Positions 1-23,848 of a DNA stretch of 23,848 nucleotides are shown here, one piece after another. Within the stretch, counting starts at the first letter, position 1. Each line of letters opens with the position of its first letter. The position numbers were made by a program, and so were the translations under genes. The notes under the pieces are model-generated. The model had not been told where the DNA came from. It saw only the letters and a program-made list of their open reading frames with translations, and did no database searches. The DNA comes from a virus, in IMG/VR virus record IMGVR_UViG_3300048625_000405, positions 1 to 23,848 of that record; one strand, given 5' to 3'.

Positions 1-450
1 GATGGTGCGAATAGCCTTAGTGTTGGAATACAGGAAATGTCGCTAGTGATCCAGTCAGTGGATGCTGTAGTCAAAATTGAGCCGATCGAAGGTGATTTTC
101 CGGATTACACAATGTTAATTCCGTCCAACTACCACGGTAGTATCCTTTTTGATAACAAAACACTCGCAGCGGATGTCAGTAAATTCAAAGACAGTCATAT
201 CTTGGTTTCAGTTGCCGACGGGAAAGTGGTTTTACGAAATTCAGATGATTCAGTAGTTCTCGTATCGTCTAGCGTGAGAGAATCAAGTAATAACGCTTCG
301 TTATCCTTTTACGTAGATCCCAAGTTGTTCGAGATGGCATTACTGTCGGTTGACGCTCCAATGCTTTACCAAGAAAATAAATTACGGCCACTGGTCTTCA
401 AGAACGATCTCGACTTGTTTCTACTGATGCCGATGAGGAACTTTTATTAA
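1..450 (+). CDS. dnaN: DNA polymerase III beta sliding clamp, C-terminal part (partial at window start)
   Basis: The frame is open from base 1, so the gene begins upstream and about 149 C-terminal residues are visible. The stretch I-E-G-D-F-P-D-Y-x-x-x-I-P matches the clamp signature IEGxFPDYxxxIP at the start of domain III. The protein ends in LLMPMRNFY, close to the usual VMPMR(L) clamp end. In the family the clamp forms a ring on DNA that tethers replicative polymerase and repair partners through a pocket partly made by this domain. An internal ATG at 37 could be mistaken for a start, but the clamp similarity continues across it. It lies convergent to the resolvase gene, with a shared terminator between them. 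A clamp next to phage genes suggests a phage-encoded processivity factor; a host gene at a prophage border cannot be excluded because the left side is missing. Confidence 0.75.
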   Translation, partial: DGANSLSVGIQEMSLVIQSVDAVVKIEPIEGDFPDYTMLIPSNYHGSILFDNKTLAADVSKFKDSHILVSVADGKVVLRNSDDSVVLVSSSVRESSNNASLSFYVDPKLFEMALLSVDAPMLYQENKLRPLVFKNDLDLFLLMPMRNFY

Positions 451-1593: not shown

Positions 1594-1646
1594 TAACGGG
1601 GTGACATACATGTCCCTAACGGGGTGACATACATGTCCCTAACGGG
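1594..1646. repeat. 23-base tandem repeat across the methyltransferase stop
   Basis: Two full copies of a 23-base unit starting TAACGGGGTGACATAC (1594 and 1617) plus a 7-base partial third at 1640. The unit is not a multiple of three, so the copy boundary sets the reading frame of the last residues and supplies the stop at 1616-1618. The unit is itself nearly palindromic around GACATACATGTC. Confidence 0.85.
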
Positions 1647-2155
1647 CTAAATACTTCATAGAATTTTGATGTATTGTTTGTGATGCCAGGTAAATATGTA
1701 ATTACTTGACCGTGAGTTGGACTGTTAAAAGTACCTTCTTTTGATAAAAACTTTACCCTTTTAGAGGGGATACAGAGTGGAAAGTCTCCGATCGCTTGGC
1801 TACAGTTTTGAGTCACTTGCAATTGCTCCAGGGAAAATCCAATAAAAATAGCATGTTGTAGCATTCCTGATTCTCTGAACTTCAACAGCTTTTCCCAGAA
1901 CTGCTTCATTAAACTCTTTCCTTGACTCTTTCCACTGGGAGGGTTCAGGAATACGCTAACAGGAAAACCTGACCAGTCAGCCGCTAGCCCGTCTTCCAGT
2001 GAGTCTATGAATCGCTTCGCCTTCACCGTCTGGTTTGCGTACTCACAAGAAGCTGGATCCAGATCAATAGATCCCAGTACTTCTCGGCTTAGTTCGATCA
2101 AGTAGGAAGGGGTGTACCATTCATCTGTTTTGGAGCTTAACAATGCTTGTGTCAT
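1616..2155 (-). CDS. Phage Dam-like DNA N6-adenine methyltransferase
   Basis: 179 residues, the usual size of the phage DNA N-6-adenine-methyltransferase family (PF05869 type). It opens with D-E-W-Y-T-P (11-16), continues to I-D-L-D-P-A-S (30-36) and carries F-L-N-P-P-S-G-K (69-76) as the catalytic motif IV region, followed by an FWEKLLKFRESG helix and a late P-S-K-R-V-K-F motif. Family members move a methyl group from S-adenosylmethionine to adenine N6, often protecting phage DNA from restriction. The motif is NPPS rather than the classic NPPY/F/W; I recall glycine or serine there in cyanobacterial relatives, so activity is likely but unproven. The last residues come from the 23-base tandem repeat. 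It is the last gene of a minus-strand run, with a terminator downstream. Confidence 0.8.
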   Translation of the reverse strand: MTQALLSSKTDEWYTPSYLIELSREVLGSIDLDPASCEYANQTVKAKRFIDSLEDGLAADWSGFPVSVFLNPPSGKSQGKSLMKQFWEKLLKFRESGMLQHAIFIGFSLEQLQVTQNCSQAIGDFPLCIPSKRVKFLSKEGTFNSPTHGQVITYLPGITNNTSKFYEVFSPLGTCMSPR

Positions 2156-3052: not shown

Positions 3053-3805
3053 CTAAGTACTAGCTAATCGTTGCAGCTCAATTGCTCGCGCAGGATCTTG
3101 GCGATAGATATTGGACTGTTCTGTTAGGTTGAATGTGTCAGGATGAAATGGATTAGGAGTTCCTGTTCTGCCATTAGAGGGATTTAACCCACTTCCGCCA
3201 CCAAACTTTCCAGCAAAGTATCGTTGGTGAGTTGGATCTCCCTTGAAGTTGGTTATCAACGTCTCTAGCGTGTAGTCAACCACATCAGTTGGACGCTTAC
3301 CTCGAACTTCGCCAGTCTCTTGATCCACGTACATCTGAACACCACGAGCTTGTAAGATGGAGTAGTAGTCATCCGCAAAATCAGCGTCAACCCCAGCTAC
3401 TTTAGCTGCCTGCTGGTACTGACTCTTGATCTGAGACTGTTCAATTTTCTGTAGTAACTGCTCTCTCTCTTTATTAGCTAGTTCCAGTTTCGCAGACAAT
3501 TCTCCATTACTGGATTTGAACTGATTTCTCTCTGTCTCTAGTTGTGACTGGAACCTTTTGAGCTGCTCGTCATTACTGGCATTCATGTCGAGAGTGTCTA
3601 ACGCATCGATCGACAAGCCCTTTGAAATTAACTTTTCCTCAATTGCGCGGTATTTCTCCTGTATTGCCTTCTTCTCGCCCAACAACTCTGTATTCTTACC
3701 TCGCAGCTTAAACACCTCTGTAAAGGCAGTCTTACCCTCGTCCAATGCACTGAGAACGTCACTACTGAGTTCGTGTCCTGTAAAGTCTGAATCAATGAGT
3801 CCCAT
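3053..3805 (-). CDS. Phage capsid scaffolding protein (GP20-like)
   Basis: 250 residues. The middle (about 25-130) is a charged, heptad-like coiled coil rich in K, E, Q and L. The C-terminus carries N-P-F-H-P-D-T-F-N-L-T-E-Q followed by Y-R-Q-D-P-A-R-A, the pattern that ends GP20-type scaffold proteins (NPW..ETFNLTxQ...ENPELA). Scaffolds line the inside of the procapsid, guide shell assembly and then leave or are cleaved. The ATG at 3805 begins one base after the stop of the gene before it, so the two are probably translationally coupled, with AAAGGA upstream. Scaffold genes usually lie directly before the capsid gene on the same strand; here it is in the opposing operon across a divergent promoter region. 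Confidence 0.75.
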   Translation of the reverse strand: MGLIDSDFTGHELSSDVLSALDEGKTAFTEVFKLRGKNTELLGEKKAIQEKYRAIEEKLISKGLSIDALDTLDMNASNDEQLKRFQSQLETERNQFKSSNGELSAKLELANKEREQLLQKIEQSQIKSQYQQAAKVAGVDADFADDYYSILQARGVQMYVDQETGEVRGKRPTDVVDYTLETLITNFKGDPTHQRYFAGKFGGGSGLNPSNGRTGTPNPFHPDTFNLTEQSNIYRQDPARAIELQRLAST

Positions 3806-3806
3806 T

Positions 3807-4421
3807 TTAGTTTAATCCTTTGAATTCGTTAAATTTTGTACCGTCAACAAGCGTTGTGTCAAATCGCCTTAATCCCATACTACGACAAATTCCCATAAAT
3901 TTGGCGTGTGTTGCGGGGTATTTCCCGACTAAACAGCCTGCACTCCATCGACCTACTAGAGCAGTTGGAGTATTAGTCGTGTGCTGGTTTAGGCCATAGT
4001 CAGAGCCAACAAACACCTTATCACCAGTCCTGGTACCGTCCTGATTCGCATCTCTGCAGACCTCTAGGTTTCCACATTGAACCAATGCGTCTTGTCCTCT
4101 GTGATCACCAATCTGCCAGCAATCCAAGTACTGCCCAAATTGCAATTGAGCCGCCCCATTTGTATTCATCCGATTAAGACGATAGTACCAGCCTGGCTCG
4201 GTAGTAGCTGTTGCAGCCATCAGGACATCACCTTCGTCGGTAATGACAGATCGGACGTCATTCCAATAGTCAATGCGATCGTTATTGACTGTTTTTAGAT
4301 CGGTGTCAAGACCTTCAAAATAGACGATATTCAGTGCGCGAATCTTGTAATTCTTGAACTGCATATACTGTAAGGTCTTGATTCCTTGCGCCTTTAGTTC
4401 TCTAATTGGTTCGTATGCCAC
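3807..4421 (-). CDS. Putative phage cell-wall-active protein with H...SAGC motif
   Basis: 204 residues, GTG start preceded by GTGGAG; it lies 4 bases after the small-terminase stop. The central part has W-Y-Y, an L-Q-F-G-Q-Y run, G-D-H-R-G at 105-109, then Y-G-L-N-Q-H (142-147) and W-S-A-G-C-L-V (159-165). The pairing of a conserved histidine with S-x-G-C recalls the active site of YkuD-type L,D-transpeptidases (HG...SHGC), and similar INxH...WSxGC proteins occur in other phages. I therefore infer a peptidoglycan-active enzyme, such as an endolysin or virion-associated lysin, with H147 and C163 as candidate catalytic residues. There is no signal peptide or membrane segment. No holin was recognised beside it. 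The family is not certain; it might instead be structural. Confidence 0.45.
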   Translation of the reverse strand: MAYEPIRELKAQGIKTLQYMQFKNYKIRALNIVYFEGLDTDLKTVNNDRIDYWNDVRSVITDEGDVLMAATATTEPGWYYRLNRMNTNGAAQLQFGQYLDCWQIGDHRGQDALVQCGNLEVCRDANQDGTRTGDKVFVGSDYGLNQHTTNTPTALVGRWSAGCLVGKYPATHAKFMGICRSMGLRRFDTTLVDGTKFNEFKGLN

Positions 4422-11488: not shown

Positions 11489-12028
11489 TTACCCTGGAGC
11501 GTTGTCAACAACTACTGATATTGGTACTGGAGCAAAGATCCTCTCTCCGTATAGTAGCGGGACTGGCGCGCCTTGAACAGCTCGACTAACCCCGCTAGCA
11601 TCATACAAGAAACTCTCTTTCCCTTCCGAGTCGTTCTGCTCCTGGGGGGAAAGCAATTGAGTAATTCCCCCTAAAATCATAGAAGCTCCAAACAATCCAA
11701 TGGTGGTACTAGAAACCCCCAAGATCGCACCAGGTATCAACAGGGAAGCCCCAAGTAATGCCACCCCTAGAATAATTCTTCCAACAGCTCCACTGCCTGT
11801 GATGTGCGGGCAGATTGTCATCGATCGTTGAATCCTGGAATCCAGAACAAAATCATCCCCATCATCAACTATCACTTCATAAGCCTGCTCTGTGTTCAGA
11901 TAGTCTACAAAACCAGGGGATTGAGCTGCGATCGCTCTGATTGCTTCGACAGGCGATCGCACACTCAAGCTCCATTCTTTCCCAAACACTTGCCCTAAAT
12001 GACCAAGTAATGTAATTTTAACTAACAC
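11489..12028 (-). CDS. Lambda gpI-like tail assembly protein
   Basis: 179 residues. The N-terminal 90 residues resemble lambda tail assembly protein I: V-K-I-T-L-L-G-H-L-G-Q-V-F-G, S-P-V-E-A-I-R-A-I-A-A-Q-S-P-G-F, then a ubiquitin-like strand pattern and I-C-P-H-I-T-G-S-G. Next comes a hydrophobic glycine/alanine-rich segment (about 84-125) and G-A-S-M-I-L-G-G-I-T-Q-L-L-S-P, which matches the GASMVLGGVAQMLAP end of gpI. The family acts in tail-tip initiation next to gpK and the central fibre protein J. An extra 50 residues after LLSP resemble the start of a J-type protein (AVQGAPVPLLYGERI..P). The ATG overlaps the end of the gpK-like gene by 11 bases. Confidence 0.75.
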   Translation of the reverse strand: MLVKITLLGHLGQVFGKEWSLSVRSPVEAIRAIAAQSPGFVDYLNTEQAYEVIVDDGDDFVLDSRIQRSMTICPHITGSGAVGRIILGVALLGASLLIPGAILGVSSTTIGLFGASMILGGITQLLSPQEQNDSEGKESFLYDASGVSRAVQGAPVPLLYGERIFAPVPISVVVDNAPG

Positions 12029-12752
12029 CGTAGTACCTCAAGAACTTTATAGTATATTCAGACCAGGGAGATCCCCAGATTTCAAGGCCGCTTTTTCGCT
12101 TGGCTAACTGATGAAGCAGGGTATTATCACCCATATAAATAGCCAGGTGATTAATTCCTCTGGCATTATTACCTATGCTCATAGCTAGTACATCACCCTG
12201 TTCCGGACTTGACACCTCTCTGAAACCAACTGATTGGTACTGAGAGTCAATCCAGTCCCACTCTACCTTATCCCATACTAGCTCGTCTGACGATCTGTGA
12301 TAGTTAGGGATCTCTACGCCCTTCACTTGCTTATAGTAGTCACGAATCATTGAGTAACAGTCGTAGATACCATAGCAGAAATCCCTTCCAATCAGTTCGG
12401 TATCTCCGCTAGGGTCGATCGCGCTGAATCTATTATGTACGACATCGTACAATATTACTGGTTTTTGAGTTCTATTGGCCAGATCTACGTCACTAGCTGT
12501 AAACTCCATGTTGCCATTTGTATGACTGTGGTAGATAGCCTTCACCCCTTGCTTATTCTCAGCGCGAGAATAAACTCTTGAGTCAATGGCGAAGTTGAGT
12601 GTTGGGTCACTGTCCTTATTCACACACTCCTTGATCGAACCATCAAGCAATATCAGGCCACAGCATTCCTTTTTGCCATCATCGTATTCCTTCCTTGCGA
12701 TCGCAGAGATCCGCTCTAGTCCTTTATTATTCAGTAGCTTGTTGATTTGCAT
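12018..12752 (-). CDS. Lambda gpK-like tail protein: JAMM peptidase plus NlpC/P60 domain
   Basis: 244 residues, the size of lambda gpK. Residues 1-110 form a JAB/MPN domain with E29, the H-S-H of 75-77 and S87-x-x-D90 as the zinc site. Residues 115-244 form an NlpC/P60 domain with catalytic Cys132 in Y-D-C-Y-S, His202 in I-N-H-L-A-I-Y-M-G-D and polar partner candidates H214/Q215. NlpC/P60 enzymes cleave peptidoglycan stem peptides; in tails this domain may open the wall during DNA entry or be lost during assembly. All key residues are present. It overlaps the gpT frame upstream by 26 bases and gpI downstream by 11, the lambda order K-I. Confidence 0.85.
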   Translation of the reverse strand: MQINKLLNNKGLERISAIARKEYDDGKKECCGLILLDGSIKECVNKDSDPTLNFAIDSRVYSRAENKQGVKAIYHSHTNGNMEFTASDVDLANRTQKPVILYDVVHNRFSAIDPSGDTELIGRDFCYGIYDCYSMIRDYYKQVKGVEIPNYHRSSDELVWDKVEWDWIDSQYQSVGFREVSSPEQGDVLAMSIGNNARGINHLAIYMGDNTLLHQLAKRKSGLEIWGSPWSEYTIKFLRYYGVS

Positions 12753-14716: not shown

Positions 14717-14738
14717 TGTATCAAACTTTGATACAAAA
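14717..14738. promoter_or_regulatory. Operator-like palindrome, right copy
   Basis: GTATCAAA-C-TTTGATAC, perfect 8-base arms, followed by AAAA. It is 72 bases beyond the copy D 19-mer and matches the left palindrome at 1150-1171. Its last base is the A of an alternative tape-measure ATG at 14738, so a bound protein would block that start region. Confidence 0.6.
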
Positions 14739-14827
14739 TGCCTGCGATCAAATTCGATACGATACCGCGCCGTATTTGCCTGATCAATGTTACTATCGAG
14801 TCACGTCTCTTTCTAGATATTTCTCTT

Positions 14828-17800
14828 ATGTCTATTCTCGGTACTCTTACCCTTGACATCTCAGCCCCCACCGCACAATTATCTAGAGACTTAGATAAGG
14901 CTGCTTCGATGATCAGAGAATCAAGTTCGAGAATGATTCCAACGATCGGAATTTCGACTGCCTTACAGAAGGATTTAAGAGCAGGTCGAAGCATTTTAAA
15001 TAACTCCATGCAGCAAATGGAGTCTGATCTAGGGAAATATGATCTTGATAATTATTCTCAAGAAGTAGACGACCTGAACTCATCAAAAATAACCCCCAAA
15101 GTTGACGACAGTCAGTTGACAGCCCTAAACAAGCACTTATCTTTAAAAGAAGAACATCTTGATCGTGTAGTACAAAAGTTTAGTAGTCAAAAGATTAAGC
15201 CCAACTTTGTAGCGGGGGACAAAATCCCAGATCAAAGCTTCAACGTCACTGTCAATCTTCGTCCAGAGAATCAAGAGCAGATAGCTAAGAGTACCTCACG
15301 CGCGATCGAGAAGGGGCTAGCTCAATCTAAAGGAAAGGGGTTGAGTCTGTTTGACGGGGTTCAATTATCTATAGGTCAGTCAATCGGAAAATCTTTATCT
15401 TCTGCACTTAAAGACATCACGGGATTTGACCTTGGCAAGGGAATTAGAACTGCTGCTAAATCGCTCTCTCAACCAATAAAAATACTTATTACCGACAATC
15501 CTCAGCTAAAAACAGAGATTGCTAAAATTAGAGCTGATATTAGTGAGAACTTAGACAGAGCGGGTTATCAACTAGCTGATGCAATTGTTGCGGGCTTAGA
15601 CAGTAGAGATGGAGACATCAAGTCACGACTGAAAGCCTTCGGCGGAGAGTTACTTAAAGACAATGTACTGAAAAATGAAGGAACGGAGATATTTGGCAAG
15701 GTCAAGGGTGGCAGTAGAAATGTAATTGATGCTGTCTTCCCTAAGGATAGAATATCAAGTTACGTAACTCCTTTTGACGAAGCACTCACTCGCCGTCGAG
15801 AAAAAACAATAAGAGAGCGTGGGATTCCAGCGGCAATGGCGCGCGCCCAAGAGATCATCTCCGACGGAAAGCTTAAAAATTCAGGGAATGCTGTCACTGA
15901 GGACACTCAGGAGCTGATTGTTGCTACAGGTGGCTATGCCAGGGCTAGAGGGCTTTCGGGTAGAAGATTACAACAGACCATCAAAGATCAGGCACCAGAG
16001 GGAACACAGGTTATTTGGATTAAAAACACGGACAGCAGTCTTGACGAAAGAACAAAGGGAGATGCAACGGCCGGAAACATAGGATCTGCGATAAACCTCG
16101 CCAAGCCCAATATCAGAGGTTACAGTCTTGACGCTACAGAGATGGTTGCACAGGCATTGGCCGCAATTGAAAAGAACCCAGAAATCAAGATTAAATTTAT
16201 AGGTGAATCTGGTGGTGGTTTTCCCGCGGAAGAGGCTGCTAAAACCCTGCAGATGATGGGGAAAAACAATGTTGAGTACCTTGGAGTTGGTACGCCCGAT
16301 TTTATTGGTGGACTGAATGCACAGGGACAAAAGATCCTTAGTCAAGATGAGTTTTTGGGAGCTAGAACACAAAAGACCTTTCAGACACTAGGTTTAGCTA
16401 AACCTAGCGAAGGCCAAAGCTTGCTAGGTGTCAAGGGGCATTCCTACGAGAATTACGAAGCAGCAACAGTAGCTCAGTTAGAGAATTTTATTAAGGGTAA
16501 GCCGGAGGAGTTTAACGAAAGGCAGATAGAGCACCTCAAAAAGGTTGCCGGAACATTTGAGTCGATGGATACCAAGTCGATGAATGATGAAGAGCTTACT
16601 AGTCTAGCTAATCAGGCATACGCAACCTTTCAGTTAGTAGAAAGACATGTTCTTGGTGCTGTAGGTAACAAGAAGGCTCAGTTGGAGACGATCGCAAAAC
16701 GATTTGAATCGGTGTACCTAAAGTCCGCCGCAGAACCAGAAGAGATGGCTGGTGTCCGTTCAGCTATAGAAAATGCTAAGAACGGCTTCCTGGATATCAA
16801 CGACAATCGCGGCGTAGAAGCAGCGGCACAAGCTAAATCAACTCAGAAAGAATTACAGAAGTACCAAAGAGATTTGGATGCACTGTATCAAAGATCCACT
16901 GGAACTATCCAAGTTAAGTATCAAAGATTAAGTGCTGAACTCAAGGGGTTGATAGACCAGTACGGGGATCCTCTTCTGGCCGTTAAAGGATCTAAACCCG
17001 ATCAAGTTGCCGCGTCAGGCACTGAGGTGGTAATGGAACCAGAAGTAGACGTATTTGCAGAAGCGGCTCGTAAATTAGAAGCGAGAAAGCGGGTTCGCCA
17101 ATTACGTAAGCCATCAATTTGGGATGAAGCACCGGAATCAGAGTCGTTTTCCTTCCTGGAAGCAGGGAAGAACTCCAAGGTCAATAAAATAGCCGTTCCA
17201 CAAACAGCAGAAACGAAGTTCGATCTTGCGGTAGATAAATTTGGTCGTGCGGTAGATAAGTTTGCCAACAATCAGGAGAAGATGAATCTTCAGGCAAATC
17301 CCTTGGATGATTATGTCGAGGGCGAGTTTGAGTATGCTGAACAGTCTACTGGTGGCAAAGTGCTTTCGGCTACTCGCCAAGCCCTGAGTTTAGCTTCACA
17401 ACCCATTGGTCAAATCGGAGCTGTCGCAGTCGGAGCCGAAGCAGCCTTGTTTGATGCACTGTCATTCCTTAAGCCACTTAAGGGCGCGCTCCAAATAGGT
17501 GGAACTCTGGCCATTGGAGGTGTTTTATCTCAAAACCCAGTTGGACAAGCAGCTATCTCGGCTACCTCTAGCACTATGCAGACGATCGCCAATATACCAA
17601 TTAGCGAGTTTGCTGGACTTACAAGCGGTGCAATTGAGCAAGTGTTGAGCGGGGCTTTAGCCAATCTACCTGGCGGAGTAGGACTAGCTCAGTCGATCGC
17701 AGTGGAGGTTCAAAGAGCATTGCAGTCAGGAGGTGTTCAGGTAGCAGGTGCTATTGGTACAGTCTTATCTCCATATCTCGTTGCGCGTATGGGCATTGGG

Positions 17801-20800
17801 GCTGCTGGGGCTGGGTTCAAACAACTAATGCCTGGGCTACAGGGCAATGACAACCTTGCAAGCTCTACGCAGCGTGCACTCACAGGAGCTGGACGAGTTG
17901 TCAAGCAGTTGATGCCAAGTACCACTATTGAGCCTTTCTGGGATGTAGAGGCGGAAGTGGTAGAAGATCGCGCGTTACCAGGTGGGACACTAAAAGCACT
18001 ACCCCCAGGAAAGAAGACTGTCAACCCTGAGTGGGCAAAGATTGTAGGAGAGCGTCTCAATACAACCCGATCTAAGGTTGAGGAAGCGATCAAGGCTGGG
18101 AATATCGAGTTGGCTCGTCAACTCAGAAGCCAATTAGAAGTCGATGTTAACGCTGCCTATAGAATGGCAGGCTTGGCAAAGAAAGATCCGAATATCTCCA
18201 AAGAGGATCTAGGTCAAATCAGTTCAATCTTGGGGAACTTAAAGAAAAAAGTTAACTTCTTGAAAACCTCCGGAGAAGCAATCGATCAGTTGGAGTCCGG
18301 GGATGTTGGATCCGTCAAAAACAAGGTTGGCTGGTCTCAACAACTAAAGAAGAGGGTGGTTGAAGGTATCCAGAAGAATATGGGTATTACCAGTAAAGGT
18401 GCCGAGGGTGGTTTTATTGATTTTCCCGTGCTCTACAGGGCGTTATTCACTCCGATACCTAATATATTTGCCGGATTAGGCTCCAGCTCCAAGAAGCCCG
18501 CACCAACAGATACTTCATTAAATACTCCATCATTTGTTTCATCAACTCCACCTCCCCCACCTCCCCGTCCTAAATTTTTGACTTTGAATGATGGTGAATC
18601 TCAACCACCATCCTCTGGTACCAGCAACCCACTATCTAAGCTGGTTGGTGCTGGCAAAATGGCTCTAGGAGTGTTTGCTGGGTTTACAGCGGCTGCTCTA
18701 GGTGTACCAGCAATGATAGCCCTAGGTAGTGCCACTATAGAGACAGCCTCAAGCTTTGAGAAGTTGCAAGCTAGGTTAGCCGGAGCTTCTAGTTCAGCTC
18801 AAACAGGGAAGGCACTCTTTAATTCACTGAGCGATAAGGCAGACAATCTAGGTATTTCTCGTTCAACAGCTCTGGGTACTGGGGCTGCAATTGCAGGGGT
18901 TACTTTTGGTACTGAACTAGAGGGCAAGCCTTCCGAGGCTATGACCCAACAGATCCTGGAACTTACGAAATCCAGGGGTCTTAATAAGGATGAGAGCCAA
19001 GGGCTGATCCGCGCACTGTCTCAGGTATTAACCAAGCCAAAAGTTAGCGCAGAGGAGATCAACCAGTTAACAGAGTCAGGAGGCATTTCAGATGCCAGAT
19101 CTATTGCTGCGCGATCGCTAGGACTGACCCCTCAGCAATTCGCAGCGCAACAGGCGAGTGGTGCTGGTATTGATTCGCAAAAATTTGTTCAGGGCTTCTT
19201 ACTTCAAGCTAATCAAGATTCGCGAACAGGTGCGGATATAGTCCAAAACTCTATTGGAGCTAAACAGAATAAGCTTGAGGCTACCAAGGAAAGATTCTCG
19301 CTGAATGCTGGTAATGCAGTCTCGCCAGTATTCAAGGCTGGTTTAGACGCAATTACTGCGGCCTTGGGGTTACTTAACGTAGCACTTGAACAAGGCTCCA
19401 CAGTATTGCTGAGTTTTGCACTTCTTGGTATCACTAAGACTGCCATGGCCTTACTCCCACTCGTTGCCAACCTTCGTTTTGTTACGTCCACAATGGCCGC
19501 ACTTCAGGGTGGGATGGCTGGAGCTGGGGCGGCGGCACTTTCAATGGGAAAAGCCTTGGCAGTCCCAGCCCTTCAGATGGCAGCTTTTTATCTGATTGCT
19601 GAGTCCGTCAAGCAGATTGGAAAAACCTGGAGCAACACCAGTCAAGAGATTGAAGATTCTGCAAACAAAATCGGAGCTTCCTTGGCCAAGGTAAACAAGA
19701 AGCCAGATCCAGAGAAGCCTAAAACAGCCTCTGATGTGCAAGGAGAAGGTTGGTTTGAAAGTGGTATTCTGGTTGCCCAACGTGGCCTAAAAGACCTTCA
19801 GAGGCTGAAAGAGAACGTCTTTGCCGCACCAGCCAGAGCACTTGGGCTTAAAGTGGAATCGGAAGCAGATGGCTTCCTAGATTCTAAGCAAAAAGAGGAT
19901 CAGGATCGCAAGCTGTCCGTAGCCAAATTAATAGAGAAGTCCTCTAAAGCAACTGAAGTAACGCTTCAAACAAGTCAGCAGGGTAATAAACTGACCGAAA
20001 TAGATCGTCAGCTAGCCGCTATCGATACAGAATTTTCGGGGCTTTTTGCAAGCGGCAAGCCAGACGCTGTTAAGCTTTCTGACATTAACAAAAAGAAAAA
20101 CGCTTTAGTAACAGAGCGATCAACGCTTATTGGGGAGAGTATTGTTCCTCAACAGACGATCGCTCAGGATAACGTTAACGAATCAAAAGCCGCACTGGCT
20201 AAACTAGAGTCCGATTTTGCGAAAGGTCAAGTACCATTAGATACCTACACTACGCAGAGAACTTTGTTGGTTTCTGCGGTTGCAGATGCTGAAAAAGCAC
20301 AGATAAAGCTGAATGAAGCCGTTAAGTCAGGATTGAGCAACCTCACTCCGTGGCTGCTTTCTCTAGATAAAATCGCTGCCAGATTTGAGGACATTGGATC
20401 CGCAGCCAATAAATCTAGAGACGCGCTTCAAGATGCTCGTGGCAGAAGTGAAATAAGTGGTGCTATCACAAAAGGAGGTTCTGAACGTCAAGCCACTCAA
20501 GACAACGAGAAAGTCACACTCAATGAGATCAAGCAGCGTAGAGCAACTATAGCCGAGTTAAAGGCAACTCTCAACTCCTTAAATCCAAACAACGTAGCGA
20601 ATGTTCAAAAAGCTTATTCTGTCAACGACAACACATCAGTAGCTCAACTTAAATTAGCTGCTAATGGTGCGGCTAATCAGAGTGACAAGGTAACATTAGA
20701 GAAGCTTGCTCTCGCCAAAGAGGAAAGCTCGAAAGTTGAGTCACTAGATTCAGGACTGAAAAATGCCCGCCTAGAGGTTTTTCGCCGAATTCGCTCTGAA

Positions 20801-23800
20801 AACAGAGAGGCGGCATTGTATTACACTTCACTAGCTCAACAAATAGATCCAGCGGGTACTGCATTCCAGAAAGTTATCTCTCAAATGAGTAGAGAGAAGA
20901 ACAAGTTTCTCTCTAAATTAAACAACTACGGAACAGGAGGTTTTGATGTCTACACTGACGCAGTGATCGCATTACTCGACGTTAGTAAAGAAAGGATGGC
21001 CGCTCAGGCAAAGGCAGCCCAAGAGAAGAAAGCAGCGATCGAAGGTGCTTTCAACAGAAAAAATGAGGATCTGGGAAGAAGGTACGACGATTATGACACC
21101 AGTGTCGGATCGCCACGGAGACCTGCGCCAAAGAAACAGATCAGTGTCTTACCCCCTCAAGAGGCTGTCTATAGTCCAGTAGCCCCCAAGGCTGCAACCC
21201 CCAAAGCAACAGTCCCCAAAGCAACAGCATCTATTATTGGTACTGTTGAAACAGCTAAAGCAAAAACAGCTAAAGCAAAGGCAGTTAAACCAAAACCCCA
21301 AAAGGCTGCTCCTAAGGTGAAAACTGCTGTCAGCGCGGCAGTAAACTCACTATCGCCCGTACAGAAGAAAAGGTATCTAACAACATCTTTCTCTGTTGAT
21401 GGTAAAACTGACCTGGGCTTCGACATGAGAGATCCTAGCGAAGCGGCACTGGCCAGAAAGATCGCGGCGGGAACAGTAAACAAGCCAGTATCCGCAGTTG
21501 CAGTTCCTAAATCAAAAAAAATACCAGCTACCACTCCATTAATTAAAGTACCAAAGCCAAAAGCAGTTAAGAAGGCTACTCCAAAGGCCACTAAACCCGC
21601 TCCAAAGGTCGCTAAACCCGCTCCAAAGGTCAAGTCTGATCCTTTTATGGTTGATATTGAAAGTAGTTCTTTTAGTCCTGTAAGTATCTTTGACAAACCC
21701 AAAGCAAAAGCCAAGGCAAAGCCAGTAGTTAAAGTCAGTAAGGTCGGCAAGGGAACAAAACCCAGCAAACAACCCAAGGCGATCATGCCAGCCAAGCCAA
21801 AGCCTCTCAAGGGTACCGGGGTTGGAGGAAAGATGACTACGACTGATTGGAGAGATGCATCAGATGCCTTGTCCAATCAAATCGCAGGCAATCAAGTTGC
21901 TAAAGCTGGACTGGATTTTGGGGATACCAACTCCGATCTTGCTCTGAGAGAGCAAAAAGCGGCTAAAGAGTTAGCTAGAAAAGAAAAACTTGCTCAACAA
22001 GCAGCCAGAAAACAACTGAGAGATCAACAGATCGCAGACATGGAATTAGTCCCATCCAGTAATATACAGGAGACTCAGCGCAGAGAATCGGTGAAACAGA
22101 AGAACTCTTTCATTGATACCCGTGAAGATCAGGCAGGCAAGATCGCAGATATGGTGGATCAGATCCAGAATGCTGAGGCAGCTATCGAGTTACTGGCTGC
22201 AAAAAGCAATAGAAGCTCCGCTGAAGAGTCTGTACTGTTACGCGCTCAGAAAGGCTTGCCACAGGCGCGTAAGACCTTACAGCTTCTGCAGGCTCAAGCG
22301 GCTCGTCGTCCAGAGATTGAGGCGCAGGCAGAAAAGAAACTAGCAGAAGATCAGGCGTACCAAATAGAGCAGATGAAAGAAAGGGAGTTGATTGACAGGA
22401 AGAAGGCAGAAACCGCTGTTATTCGTGCAGATCAGACAAACGTTCGGCAACGCCTTGCTGTCTCTCCATATAGCGAGGGATTAAAAGCTACCTCTCGCGA
22501 TCTAGATCAAAAGGAAGCTAAGAATGAAGCCGAAGTCGGAAGAATTCAGGGATTGAGGGAAATTGAAGACAGAAAAAGACAAGATGCAAGTTACTCTCCG
22601 GGAGCTCAAGCAGCCGATCGTAAGAGGGTTGAGCGAATCTATTTGGACACGCTGAAAAACGCTGGACAAAAGAGATCTCAAGATTCCGTTCGCGCCAAAC
22701 AAGAACAAGAGTCAGAACTCGCAACCAATCTGATTGCCCAAAAGCGAGGGACTGAGGAGGGCGTTGGAATACAAATACGTGCATCTGAATCAACTGACAA
22801 GACTGATGCCCCTTTTGCTAATACCCGAACCATCGAGATGAAGGCGGCTCAATCCCTTCGATCAGTCGATCTAAGACAGGCTGAAAAAGACAGGCAGTAC
22901 AAGGAGGCAAGGATTAAATATGCCGACAACGCTGCTTTACTTGCCAGTGTTGAGCAACAACAGTTGGACTCAACAAAACAACTTAGTGCCGAGAAGGACG
23001 TTATTAAGAACGAACTTAACGCCGCGTTAGCCGATGCCGCCAAACAAAAGGCTGCTTACGACTTCAACAAAACTCAGGTTGCTCAATCCCAGTCCAAGGC
23101 ATTCAATGTTGCTGCAATTACAAGAGTAAGACAGAGAGGGGGTGATACAAAAGACCTTGAGTATGCTGAAGCTGTTACAGATCGCAAGGCACAGACCAGC
23201 AAGGAAGTGTTTGATCTGCAGCAACAGAAAGCCACTATAACTGGGATGACTGCCGAGGCCGATAAAGCTAGGGCTGAAATAGATGCTCTGATTGAGGGTT
23301 TCTATAAGCTTGAAAAAGTTGATCTCTCAAATATCGCTGAACAGTTTGATCGCATTAATGAGGTAATTGGAGATACTCAAAAAGCTACTACAAGTGTGTT
23401 GACTGATTTCGTGAAAACTGGCAATTTTGACTGGAAGAAGATCCTGGTCACTGGCTTGGACTCAGGTATCAACCAGATCATGAACAAGATTGTTCCCGAT
23501 CTTTTCTCTGGATTGTACCGAAAAGGCAGCGCACCAACTGATCAGCCTATTGAGGAACAGACACCAGTTCTTGAACCTCGTCCCAAACTTTCTCTGGAAA
23601 ACACCGCGATCGCGAAGGCCGAGCTTTTACGGAAAGACAGAGTCTTCAATACTCAACTTCCACAGCCAGAGTTACCTAAAAAGGTTAACCCTGACATCAT
23701 TCAGTCGATACAAGCAGAGTCGCCCAAAAGAGTCAACCCTGACATTGATCTAGTTTCAAGCTTCGTCTCACCTCCTCTCTCTGGTGCGCAAAAGAATGGC

Positions 23801-23848
23801 GAGTTACCCACCATCTTCACTCCTTCGTCTAATAACCCAGTACCAGTT
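14828..23848 (+). CDS. Giant lambda-type tail tape measure protein (partial, runs off the window end)
   Basis: The frame is open from 14828 to the last base: at least 3,007 residues. An in-frame ATG at 14738 would add 30 residues; neither start has a clear ribosome binding site, and I prefer 14828 because MSILGTLTLDISAPTAQLSRDL looks like a tape measure N-terminus. Order: helical N-terminus; alpha/beta-hydrolase-like domain about 362-545; helical and coiled-coil parts; hydrophobic segment about 845-902; polyproline run at about 1241-1246; hydrophobic 1272-1308; tape-measure N-terminal-type domain 1309-1461 with G-L-I-R-A-L-S-Q and S-A-E-E-I-N-Q-L-T-E; hydrophobic 1511-1550; coiled coils; Lys/Ala/Pro-rich 2119-2335; coiled coils; and a lambda-type C-terminal block near 2858-2885 (F-V-K-T-G-N-F-D-W-K-K). 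It sets tail length and helps DNA pass into the cell. Divergent from gpG/gpGT. Confidence 0.85.
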   Translation, partial: MSILGTLTLDISAPTAQLSRDLDKAASMIRESSSRMIPTIGISTALQKDLRAGRSILNNSMQQMESDLGKYDLDNYSQEVDDLNSSKITPKVDDSQLTALNKHLSLKEEHLDRVVQKFSSQKIKPNFVAGDKIPDQSFNVTVNLRPENQEQIAKSTSRAIEKGLAQSKGKGLSLFDGVQLSIGQSIGKSLSSALKDITGFDLGKGIRTAAKSLSQPIKILITDNPQLKTEIAKIRADISENLDRAGYQLADAIVAGLDSRDGDIKSRLKAFGGELLKDNVLKNEGTEIFGKVKGGSRNVIDAVFPKDRISSYVTPFDEALTRRREKTIRERGIPAAMARAQEIISDGKLKNSGNAVTEDTQELIVATGGYARARGLSGRRLQQTIKDQAPEGTQVIWIKNTDSSLDERTKGDATAGNIGSAINLAKPNIRGYSLDATEMVAQALAAIEKNPEIKIKFIGESGGGFPAEEAAKTLQMMGKNNVEYLGVGTPDFIGGLNAQGQKILSQDEFLGARTQKTFQTLGLAKPSEGQSLLGVKGHSYENYEAATVAQLENFIKGKPEEFNERQIEHLKKVAGTFESMDTKSMNDEELTSLANQAYATFQLVERHVLGAVGNKKAQLETIAKRFESVYLKSAAEPEEMAGVRSAIENAKNGFLDINDNRGVEAAAQAKSTQKELQKYQRDLDALYQRSTGTIQVKYQRLSAELKGLIDQYGDPLLAVKGSKPDQVAASGTEVVMEPEVDVFAEAARKLEARKRVRQLRKPSIWDEAPESESFSFLEAGKNSKVNKIAVPQTAETKFDLAVDKFGRAVDKFANNQEKMNLQANPLDDYVEGEFEYAEQSTGGKVLSATRQALSLASQPIGQIGAVAVGAEAALFDALSFLKPLKGALQIGGTLAIGGVLSQNPVGQAAISATSSTMQTIANIPISEFAGLTSGAIEQVLSGALANLPGGVGLAQSIAVEVQRALQSGGVQVAGAIGTVLSPYLVARMGIGAAGAGFKQLMPGLQGNDNLASSTQRALTGAGRVVKQLMPSTTIEPFWDVEAEVVEDRALPGGTLKALPPGKKTVNPEWAKIVGERLNTTRSKVEEAIKAGNIELARQLRSQLEVDVNAAYRMAGLAKKDPNISKEDLGQISSILGNLKKKVNFLKTSGEAIDQLESGDVGSVKNKVGWSQQLKKRVVEGIQKNMGITSKGAEGGFIDFPVLYRALFTPIPNIFAGLGSSSKKPAPTDTSLNTPSFVSSTPPPPPPRPKFLTLNDGESQPPSSGTSNPLSKLVGAGKMALGVFAGFTAAALGVPAMIALGSATIETASSFEKLQARLAGASSSAQTGKALFNSLSDKADNLGISRSTALGTGAAIAGVTFGTELEGKPSEAMTQQILELTKSRGLNKDESQGLIRALSQVLTKPKVSAEEINQLTESGGISDARSIAARSLGLTPQQFAAQQASGAGIDSQKFVQGFLLQANQDSRTGADIVQNSIGAKQNKLEATKERFSLNAGNAVSPVFKAGLDAITAALGLLNVALEQGSTVLLSFALLGITKTAMALLPLVANLRFVTSTMAALQGGMAGAGAAALSMGKALAVPALQMAAFYLIAESVKQIGKTWSNTSQEIEDSANKIGASLAKVNKKPDPEKPKTASDVQGEGWFESGILVAQRGLKDLQRLKENVFAAPARALGLKVESEADGFLDSKQKEDQDRKLSVAKLIEKSSKATEVTLQTSQQGNKLTEIDRQLAAIDTEFSGLFASGKPDAVKLSDINKKKNALVTERSTLIGESIVPQQTIAQDNVNESKAALAKLESDFAKGQVPLDTYTTQRTLLVSAVADAEKAQIKLNEAVKSGLSNLTPWLLSLDKIAARFEDIGSAANKSRDALQDARGRSEISGAITKGGSERQATQDNEKVTLNEIKQRRATIAELKATLNSLNPNNVANVQKAYSVNDNTSVAQLKLAANGAANQSDKVTLEKLALAKEESSKVESLDSGLKNARLEVFRRIRSENREAALYYTSLAQQIDPAGTAFQKVISQMSREKNKFLSKLNNYGTGGFDVYTDAVIALLDVSKERMAAQAKAAQEKKAAIEGAFNRKNEDLGRRYDDYDTSVGSPRRPAPKKQISVLPPQEAVYSPVAPKAATPKATVPKATASIIGTVETAKAKTAKAKAVKPKPQKAAPKVKTAVSAAVNSLSPVQKKRYLTTSFSVDGKTDLGFDMRDPSEAALARKIAAGTVNKPVSAVAVPKSKKIPATTPLIKVPKPKAVKKATPKATKPAPKVAKPAPKVKSDPFMVDIESSSFSPVSIFDKPKAKAKAKPVVKVSKVGKGTKPSKQPKAIMPAKPKPLKGTGVGGKMTTTDWRDASDALSNQIAGNQVAKAGLDFGDTNSDLALREQKAAKELARKEKLAQQAARKQLRDQQIADMELVPSSNIQETQRRESVKQKNSFIDTREDQAGKIADMVDQIQNAEAAIELLAAKSNRSSAEESVLLRAQKGLPQARKTLQLLQAQAARRPEIEAQAEKKLAEDQAYQIEQMKERELIDRKKAETAVIRADQTNVRQRLAVSPYSEGLKATSRDLDQKEAKNEAEVGRIQGLREIEDRKRQDASYSPGAQAADRKRVERIYLDTLKNAGQKRSQDSVRAKQEQESELATNLIAQKRGTEEGVGIQIRASESTDKTDAPFANTRTIEMKAAQSLRSVDLRQAEKDRQYKEARIKYADNAALLASVEQQQLDSTKQLSAEKDVIKNELNAALADAAKQKAAYDFNKTQVAQSQSKAFNVAAITRVRQRGGDTKDLEYAEAVTDRKAQTSKEVFDLQQQKATITGMTAEADKARAEIDALIEGFYKLEKVDLSNIAEQFDRINEVIGDTQKATTSVLTDFVKTGNFDWKKILVTGLDSGINQIMNKIVPDLFSGLYRKGSAPTDQPIEEQTPVLEPRPKLSLENTAIAKAELLRKDRVFNTQLPQPELPKKVNPDIIQSIQAESPKRVNPDIDLVSSFVSPPLSGAQKNGELPTIFTPSSNNPVPV
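15911..16462 (+). other. Alpha/beta-hydrolase-like domain inside the tape measure protein
   Basis: Residues about 362-545. A first strand E-L-I-V-A-T-G-G-Y could supply the oxyanion-hole loop. T-Q-V-I-W-I and a helix E-M-V-A-Q-A-L-A-A-I-E follow, then strand I-K-I-K-F-I and the nucleophile elbow G-E-S-G-G-G (Ser461). Next come a helix E-E-A-A-K-T-L-Q, strand V-E-Y-L-G-V-G-T-P-D-F (Asp491) and G-H-S-Y-E-N-Y (His538). The order Ser-Asp-His and spacing suit a serine hydrolase of the lipase type. The substrate is unknown. Confidence 0.6.
21182..21832 (+). other. Lys/Ala/Pro-rich low-complexity segment of the tape measure protein
   Basis: Residues about 2119-2335 contain many A-P-K, K-A-K, K-P and T-P-K units, resembling the tails of histone H1-like proteins. 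A short ordered-looking stretch (KKRYLTTSFSVDGKTDLGFDMRD) interrupts them. Probably disordered and strongly basic. Long open frames on the other strand here are shadows of the skewed composition. Confidence 0.7.

Follow-up and report, generated by a model that had tools for sequence, protein, structure and literature searches.

A candidate alpha/beta-hydrolase domain in the tape measure protein of a tailed phage, with a possible role late in entry

The window analyzed here, a 23,848-base IMG/VR contig taken whole, ends in a very long open reading frame that raises a question: does a phage tape measure protein contain a serine hydrolase and, if so, when during entry and on what would it act? 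A sequence-only reading had drawn attention to a GESGGG turn, an Asp, and a His in this frame, and all of them are indeed present in the one ORF (coordinates of this and the other features are given in Table 1). The residue numbers of that reading (Ser461, Asp491, and His538) assume a start at Met31 (position 14828), which is the likelier start of the protein; in the ORF numbering used below they correspond to Ser491, Asp521, and His568.

The carrier was said to be a tape measure protein, and this holds. PF20155 (TMP_3) matches residues 1333-1516 at 44.4 bits (cut-off 41; E 2e-11), the product comprises at least 3037 aa, and the gene lies in a tail module, near tail proteins that match phrog_30, phrog_32, and phrog_14. 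Other genes in the window encode a major head protein, a minor tail protein, a tail protein with JAB and NlpC/P60 domains, and a tail assembly protein. On this gene content, the window is part of a tailed phage whose tail genes are lambda-like. The JAB and NlpC/P60 protein is likely the phage's own peptidoglycan-cutting tail enzyme, and Pfam finds no wall-cutting domain (M23, NlpC/P60, lysozyme, or transglycosylase) in the visible part of the tape measure ORF. Toward the other end of the window, genes for a head scaffolding-like protein (phrog_206; 3056-3805, - strand) and an endolysin-like protein (phrog_33083; 3810-4421, - strand) lie on the strand opposite to the major head protein. A Dam-type DNA adenine methyltransferase (PF05869) is encoded at 1616-2152 (- strand), and at 1-447 (+ strand) the window start cuts a DNA polymerase processivity factor-like protein (phrog_947), leaving its C-terminal part.

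Table 1. Positions in the window of the tape measure ORF, the hydrolase-like domain with its motifs, and a separate tail enzyme
Feature	Position	Strand	Basis or remark
Separate tail protein with JAB and NlpC/P60 domains	12018..12752	-	Pfam NLPC_P60 1.9e-11, Prok-JAB 2.4e-7; phrog_30 minor tail protein
Tape measure protein ORF	14738..23848	+	3037 aa, open at window end; homologous to five other tape measures
Alpha/beta-hydrolase-like domain, core residues 384-590	15887..16507	+	Alignment A2, AlphaFold, Foldseek, hhalign to CL131 repeats
GGYAxARGLSG motif following the first strand of the core, candidate oxyanion-hole loop	15929..15961	+	Invariant save one residue in six homologs
Conserved helix RGxSxDAxEMxAQA ahead of the nucleophile strand	16115..16156	+	Alignment and model
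Nucleophile elbow GESGGG with Ser491 (codon 16208-16210)	16202..16219	+	Invariant 6/6; strand-helix junction in model; aligned with GHSAGG of CL131
Asp521	16298..16300	+	Rejected as catalytic acid; D/D/Q/N/K/D in homologs
KIxSxDExLGA motif with likely catalytic acid Asp537 (or Glu538)	16331..16363	+	K, I, S, D, E, L, and G invariant 6/6
LLGVKGHSYENY motif with His568 (codon 16439-16441)	16421..16456	+	His invariant in 6/6 homologs and 4/4 CL131 repeats
TMP_3 tape measure region	18734..19285	+	Pfam profile

It should be noted that the motif alone is weak. A loose strand-GxSxG-D-H pattern appears in ~1% of shuffles of the tape measure, and GxSGGG in 0.4%; the domain is considered real because it is conserved among homologs. 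These were found with degenerate DNA patterns laid over the motifs and scanned across IMG/VR, the first of which included the serine motif. The scans yielded five relatives: IMGVR_UViG_3300037310_000552 (G001), 3300035000_000003 (G002), 3300049811_000649 (G003), 3300049491_000955 (G004), and 2775506876_000001 (G005). Most matches of the first in-frame scan, as well as three of a later scan, were discarded as wrong-frame or glycine-rich noise, and a motif pattern set one base out of frame gave 14 matches, which serves as the chance estimate. An independent pattern, placed on the upstream GYAxARGLSG motif, recovered these five records again and none that lacks the serine (its extra matches were again wrong-frame or glycine-rich); thus, including the serine in the earlier patterns had not restricted the set of relatives.

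In each relative the domain sits inside a very long open frame (2395-3502 aa), and all five frames match TMP_3, above the Pfam cut-off in three cases and below it in G001 and G005. Alignment A2 comprises six sequences only, the window and these five. Over the aligned domain, identity to the window is 44-49% in four relatives and 35% in the fifth. For the first stretch that aligns with each relative, identity is 32-41%, compared with 22-29% around TMP_3, and by this measure the domain is the most strongly conserved part of the tape measure. The invariant residues of A2 fall into five clusters (GGYAxARGLSG, RGxSxDAxEMxAQA, GESGGGFxAEEA, KIxSxDExLG, and the GH region of GVxGH), with conservation highest at the Ser, acid, His, and oxyanion-loop motifs. 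Residues invariant in the six homologous tape measures include Ser491, His568, Gly398-Gly399-Tyr400, and the Asp537-Glu538 pair of an S-x-D-E motif. The triad first proposed survives in part: the alignment keeps its Ser and His in 6/6 tape measures, but not its Asp (Asp521), which reads D, D, Q, N, K, and D across the six and was rejected as the catalytic acid. Judged by conservation, the acid is likely to be supplied by S-x-D-E instead, with the choice between Asp537 and Glu538 ambiguous.

Sequence databases do not recognize this family. No significant match was obtained for the window domain family in Pfam, NCBIfam, PHROG, or, at the sequence level, the PDB (where matches were chance only), and no hydrolase family in Pfam or NCBIfam recognizes it. 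The Cutinase profile (PF01083) matches none of the six members, and the DUF676 and Lipase_3 profiles give nothing above cut-off. Single-sequence searches of viral contigs and genome contigs found no relatives, nor did a two-sequence alignment against genome contigs (one viral tblastn scan used a consensus taken from the alignment, for searching only). Searches of INPHARED and PLSDB by tblastn returned nothing useful except the cyanophage vB_AphaS-CL131 matching itself. Among other cyanophages, there was no match in the Microcystis phages Mic1, Me-ZS1, and Ma-LMM01, in Nodularia phages kac65v151 and 2AV2 (for 2AV2, with the A2 profile only), or in Nostoc phage A1, Planktothrix phage PaV-LD, and Pseudanabaena phage PA-SR01. 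A weak match of Nostoc phage N1 to the CL131 profile was set aside, as the protein is a tube protein (CIS_tube).

With two sequences AlphaFold gave a poor model (pLDDT 59); with six, the model reached a pTM of 0.72 and a mean pLDDT of 69, with a beta-alpha-beta order. It is good for the four N-terminal strands and their flanking helices, and places Ser491 between strand 138-143 and helix 148-160 (domain numbering), the position expected of the G-x-S-x-G elbow (here GESGG) in an alpha/beta-hydrolase. A conserved acid followed by a His, also expected of this fold, is present as sequence features, and the strands nearby are of low confidence in the model (pLDDT below 50 at domain residues 178-198 and 209-230). 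The sheet topology is suggested in part, by four strands in the expected order and by the cutinase matches, with the C-terminal half of the core below pLDDT 50. In a Foldseek search of the PDB, cutinases and other alpha/beta-hydrolases came out on top (probability ~1.0, but a modest E of 6.5e-3), with TM-scores that are low, mostly 0.3-0.49 (target-normalised). Among viral models, the top matches (E 2.7e-8 to 2.4e-4) were an unnamed 1191-aa protein, a "Tape measure domain protein [Bacteriophage sp.]," and two proteins without a name, 905 and 330 aa long, which fit CL131 gp048 and gp047, respectively, by accession range and length. Mycobacteriophage LysB proteins were among the weaker viral fold matches.

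Phage CL131 infects the filamentous cyanobacterium Aphanizomenon flos-aquae, and a profile search of its record (MG209611) matched gp047 (ATW59315, 330 aa) and gp048 (ATW59316, 1811 aa), the two genes immediately preceding the one annotated as the tape measure (gp049). According to notes in the record, gp047 resembles a Leptolyngbya "tape measure domain protein" and gp048 a protein from Pseudanabaena. The hydrolase module occurs about three times in gp048. The CL131 copies have GHSAG(G), an invariant Asp, and an invariant His, and one copy reads AHGYGG, without the serine; the GGYAxARGLSG motif of the window domain aligns with TGGFYGSMG of gp048. When A2 was compared with the CL131 repeats using hhalign, the probability was 98.0% (E 2.3e-13), with the Ser, the acid (within one residue), and the His aligned, whereas a control comparison of A2 with the TMP_3 profile gave 0.2%. 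Moreover, gp048 itself matches DUF676 (2.7e-8) and Lipase_3 (2.3e-5) above cut-off, and Abhydrolase and Cutinase below it. Taken at the level of profiles, this combination of homology to CL131 and hydrolase-family matches of gp048 is the strongest argument for an alpha/beta-hydrolase identity. A cyanobacterial host for the window phage is suggested indirectly by the homologous CL131 proteins, together with the cyanobacterial best hits in the CL131 record. Mass spectrometry of the CL131 virion identified 23 proteins; the main text of that paper names no hydrolase, lipase, or esterase, and gp047 and gp048 are annotated as hypothetical (PMC6293099).

Given the conserved Ser and His, the fold matches, and the CL131 profile link, we consider that the domain very probably has an alpha/beta-hydrolase fold, in agreement with the original proposal. 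That it is an active enzyme, as predicted from its sequence, is probable, with somewhat less assurance. The serine-less CL131 repeat implies that the fold can persist without catalysis, and the module might instead be non-catalytic, with the fold kept for assembly (e.g., for binding a chaperone, the neck, or the tail tube). Consistent with such a structural or binding role are this repeat, which lacks the nucleophile and yet has the fold signature, the lack of conservation of Asp521, and the fact that the window domain is recognized by no known hydrolase family. Against it, the Ser, acid, His, and oxyanion-loop glycines are invariant despite only 35-49% identity to the window, as expected of a working active site, and we regard a purely structural module as unlikely.

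The tape measure C-terminus is at the tail tip in lambda (PMC10721106), 80alpha (PMC11661146), and JBD30 (PMC11445458), and its N-terminus is at the neck in 80alpha (PMC11661146). In each of the six proteins the domain lies on the N-terminal side of TMP_3; thus, it should emerge last, after any wall enzymes. Peptidoglycan enzymes occur C-terminal of TMP_3 in three relatives (M23 in G001, M23 and DPBB in G004, and VanY with a weak M23 match in G005). Because of these, and the NlpC/P60 tail protein of the window phage, the hydrolase would be an addition to the wall-cutting enzymes rather than a replacement. The domain is distinct from the known peptidoglycan-cutting types, as the sequence-only reading held.

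We infer the catalytic activity, ejection order, target, and substrate of the domain as follows. Residues ~384-590 would form a serine hydrolase of the alpha/beta-hydrolase superfamily, with a triad of Ser491, Asp537 (or Glu538), and His568 and an oxyanion loop at GGYA. In the virion, the domain would be packed in the head-proximal tail, probably unfolded or compact; three folded copies of such a globular domain would probably be too large for the tail lumen, and the domain may therefore regain its fold once ejected or be placed at the neck. During entry, the C-terminal part of the tape measure, which in several relatives carries peptidoglycan hydrolases, would open the wall first, and the hydrolase would exit last and refold in the periplasm or at the inner membrane. 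There, it may cut an ester bond, most likely a lipid acyl bond, and so help the tape measure to make or open a channel for the DNA. We give this account as a whole an even chance of being correct. A broader version, in which lipid- or ester-cutting serine hydrolases form a family in siphophage tape measures, leave last, and act on the inner membrane after the wall has been opened, with wall- and membrane-modifying enzymes travelling in a single ejected protein, is tentative and on balance doubtful.

The target originally favored was an outer one, with the enzyme cutting lipid, acyl, or sheath ester bonds of the outer membrane or sheath early in entry. The fold does resemble those of cutinases and lipases that act on surface ester polymers, the CL131 host is a filamentous cyanobacterium, and CL131 has several copies of the module. 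However, in 6/6 proteins the domain is N-terminal of TMP_3 and would lie at the neck end, which exits last, and CL131 encodes the module apart from its tape measure. Last-out exit would favor a late target, at the inner membrane or in the periplasm, over the outer membrane, so this first target is weakened and an outer-layer enzyme seems distinctly unlikely. The same last-out position at the DNA end, together with the occurrence of the module as separate proteins beside the CL131 tape measure, could instead suit an injected effector, one that enters the cytoplasm or remains at the inner membrane and, early in infection, modifies lipids or thioesters of the host or a defence molecule. We find this improbable, and rank it below an outer-layer enzyme: there is no sign that the N-terminal part of a tape measure arrives in the cytoplasm in one piece, a cleavage site was not identified, and no connection with a defence system was seen. 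Resemblance by chance (a protein rich in coiled coils, with helices and a GESGGG turn, but no alpha/beta-hydrolase), to which motif triples in ~1% of tape measure shuffles and the lack of a direct Pfam match might point, is very improbable and already contradicted by the invariant motifs in six diverged proteins, the fold matches, and the 98% profile link, with its clean negative control, to CL131 proteins of which gp048 matches DUF676/Lipase_3.

The proposed late-acting hydrolase can be set beside several known systems. The closest are CL131 gp047 and gp048, which share with it profile homology over the Ser, acid, and His and a tape measure neighborhood, but differ in being separate proteins, in the roughly threefold repetition of the module in gp048, in having GHSAGG rather than GESGGG, and in the one serine-less copy. 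Cutinases and other alpha/beta-hydrolases are the best fold matches of the model, the DUF676 and Lipase_3 profiles recognize the CL131 homolog, and the order GxSxG, acid, His is shared; in contrast, the window domain has no sequence-level match to any of these families, has a GESGGG elbow, and lies inside a virion protein of some 3,000 residues. Tape measures with peptidoglycan hydrolases, such as those of T5 (pb2), phiIPLA35, and TP901-1, counted among virion-associated lysins, likewise bear enzymes, and relatives of the window protein hold M23, DPBB, or VanY domains too; unlike these enzymes, the window domain has a probable serine esterase/lipase-type fold, lies N-terminal of TMP_3, and is not wall-cutting. 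Mycobacteriophage LysB is a phage-coded esterase that acts on envelope lipid, but it is an exit (lysis) enzyme found outside any tape measure (PMC6116005). In the same review of phage entry enzymes, tape measure lysins are peptidoglycan-degrading and the word lipase is absent. In the portion of the open-licence PMC full texts that was covered, no publication describing such a hydrolase domain in a tape measure was found. Enzyme domains in tape measures are already known; what is new relative to that literature is one with this fold and likely target.

The account bears on how siphophage tape measures take DNA across the inner membrane. The enzyme domains known from tape measures are peptidoglycan-cutting. 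If the proposed account is correct, a serine hydrolase at the DNA-side end would introduce an enzymatic step on a membrane lipid or other ester late in entry. The homologous proteins of CL131, a cultured cyanophage, make the hydrolase idea testable.

Some features of the individual relatives deserve mention. Rhodanese-like and HrcA genes follow the G003 tape measure (L078:18745-19902), which suggests a provirus with a host chromosome flank; no cyanobacterial reference for the HrcA flank is among the plasmid matches listed. The G004 tape measure (L080) combines M23 with a DPBB lytic transglycosylase, and that of G005 (L082:1-9615) combines the hydrolase domain with a VanY D-Ala-D-Ala carboxypeptidase in addition to its weak M23 match. 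In CL131, gp047 and gp048 (L100:3717-10141; MG209611 41716-48140) carry a repeated Cys-rich motif, CKxGKxCGxxCIPKxxxC, ahead of the hydrolase modules.
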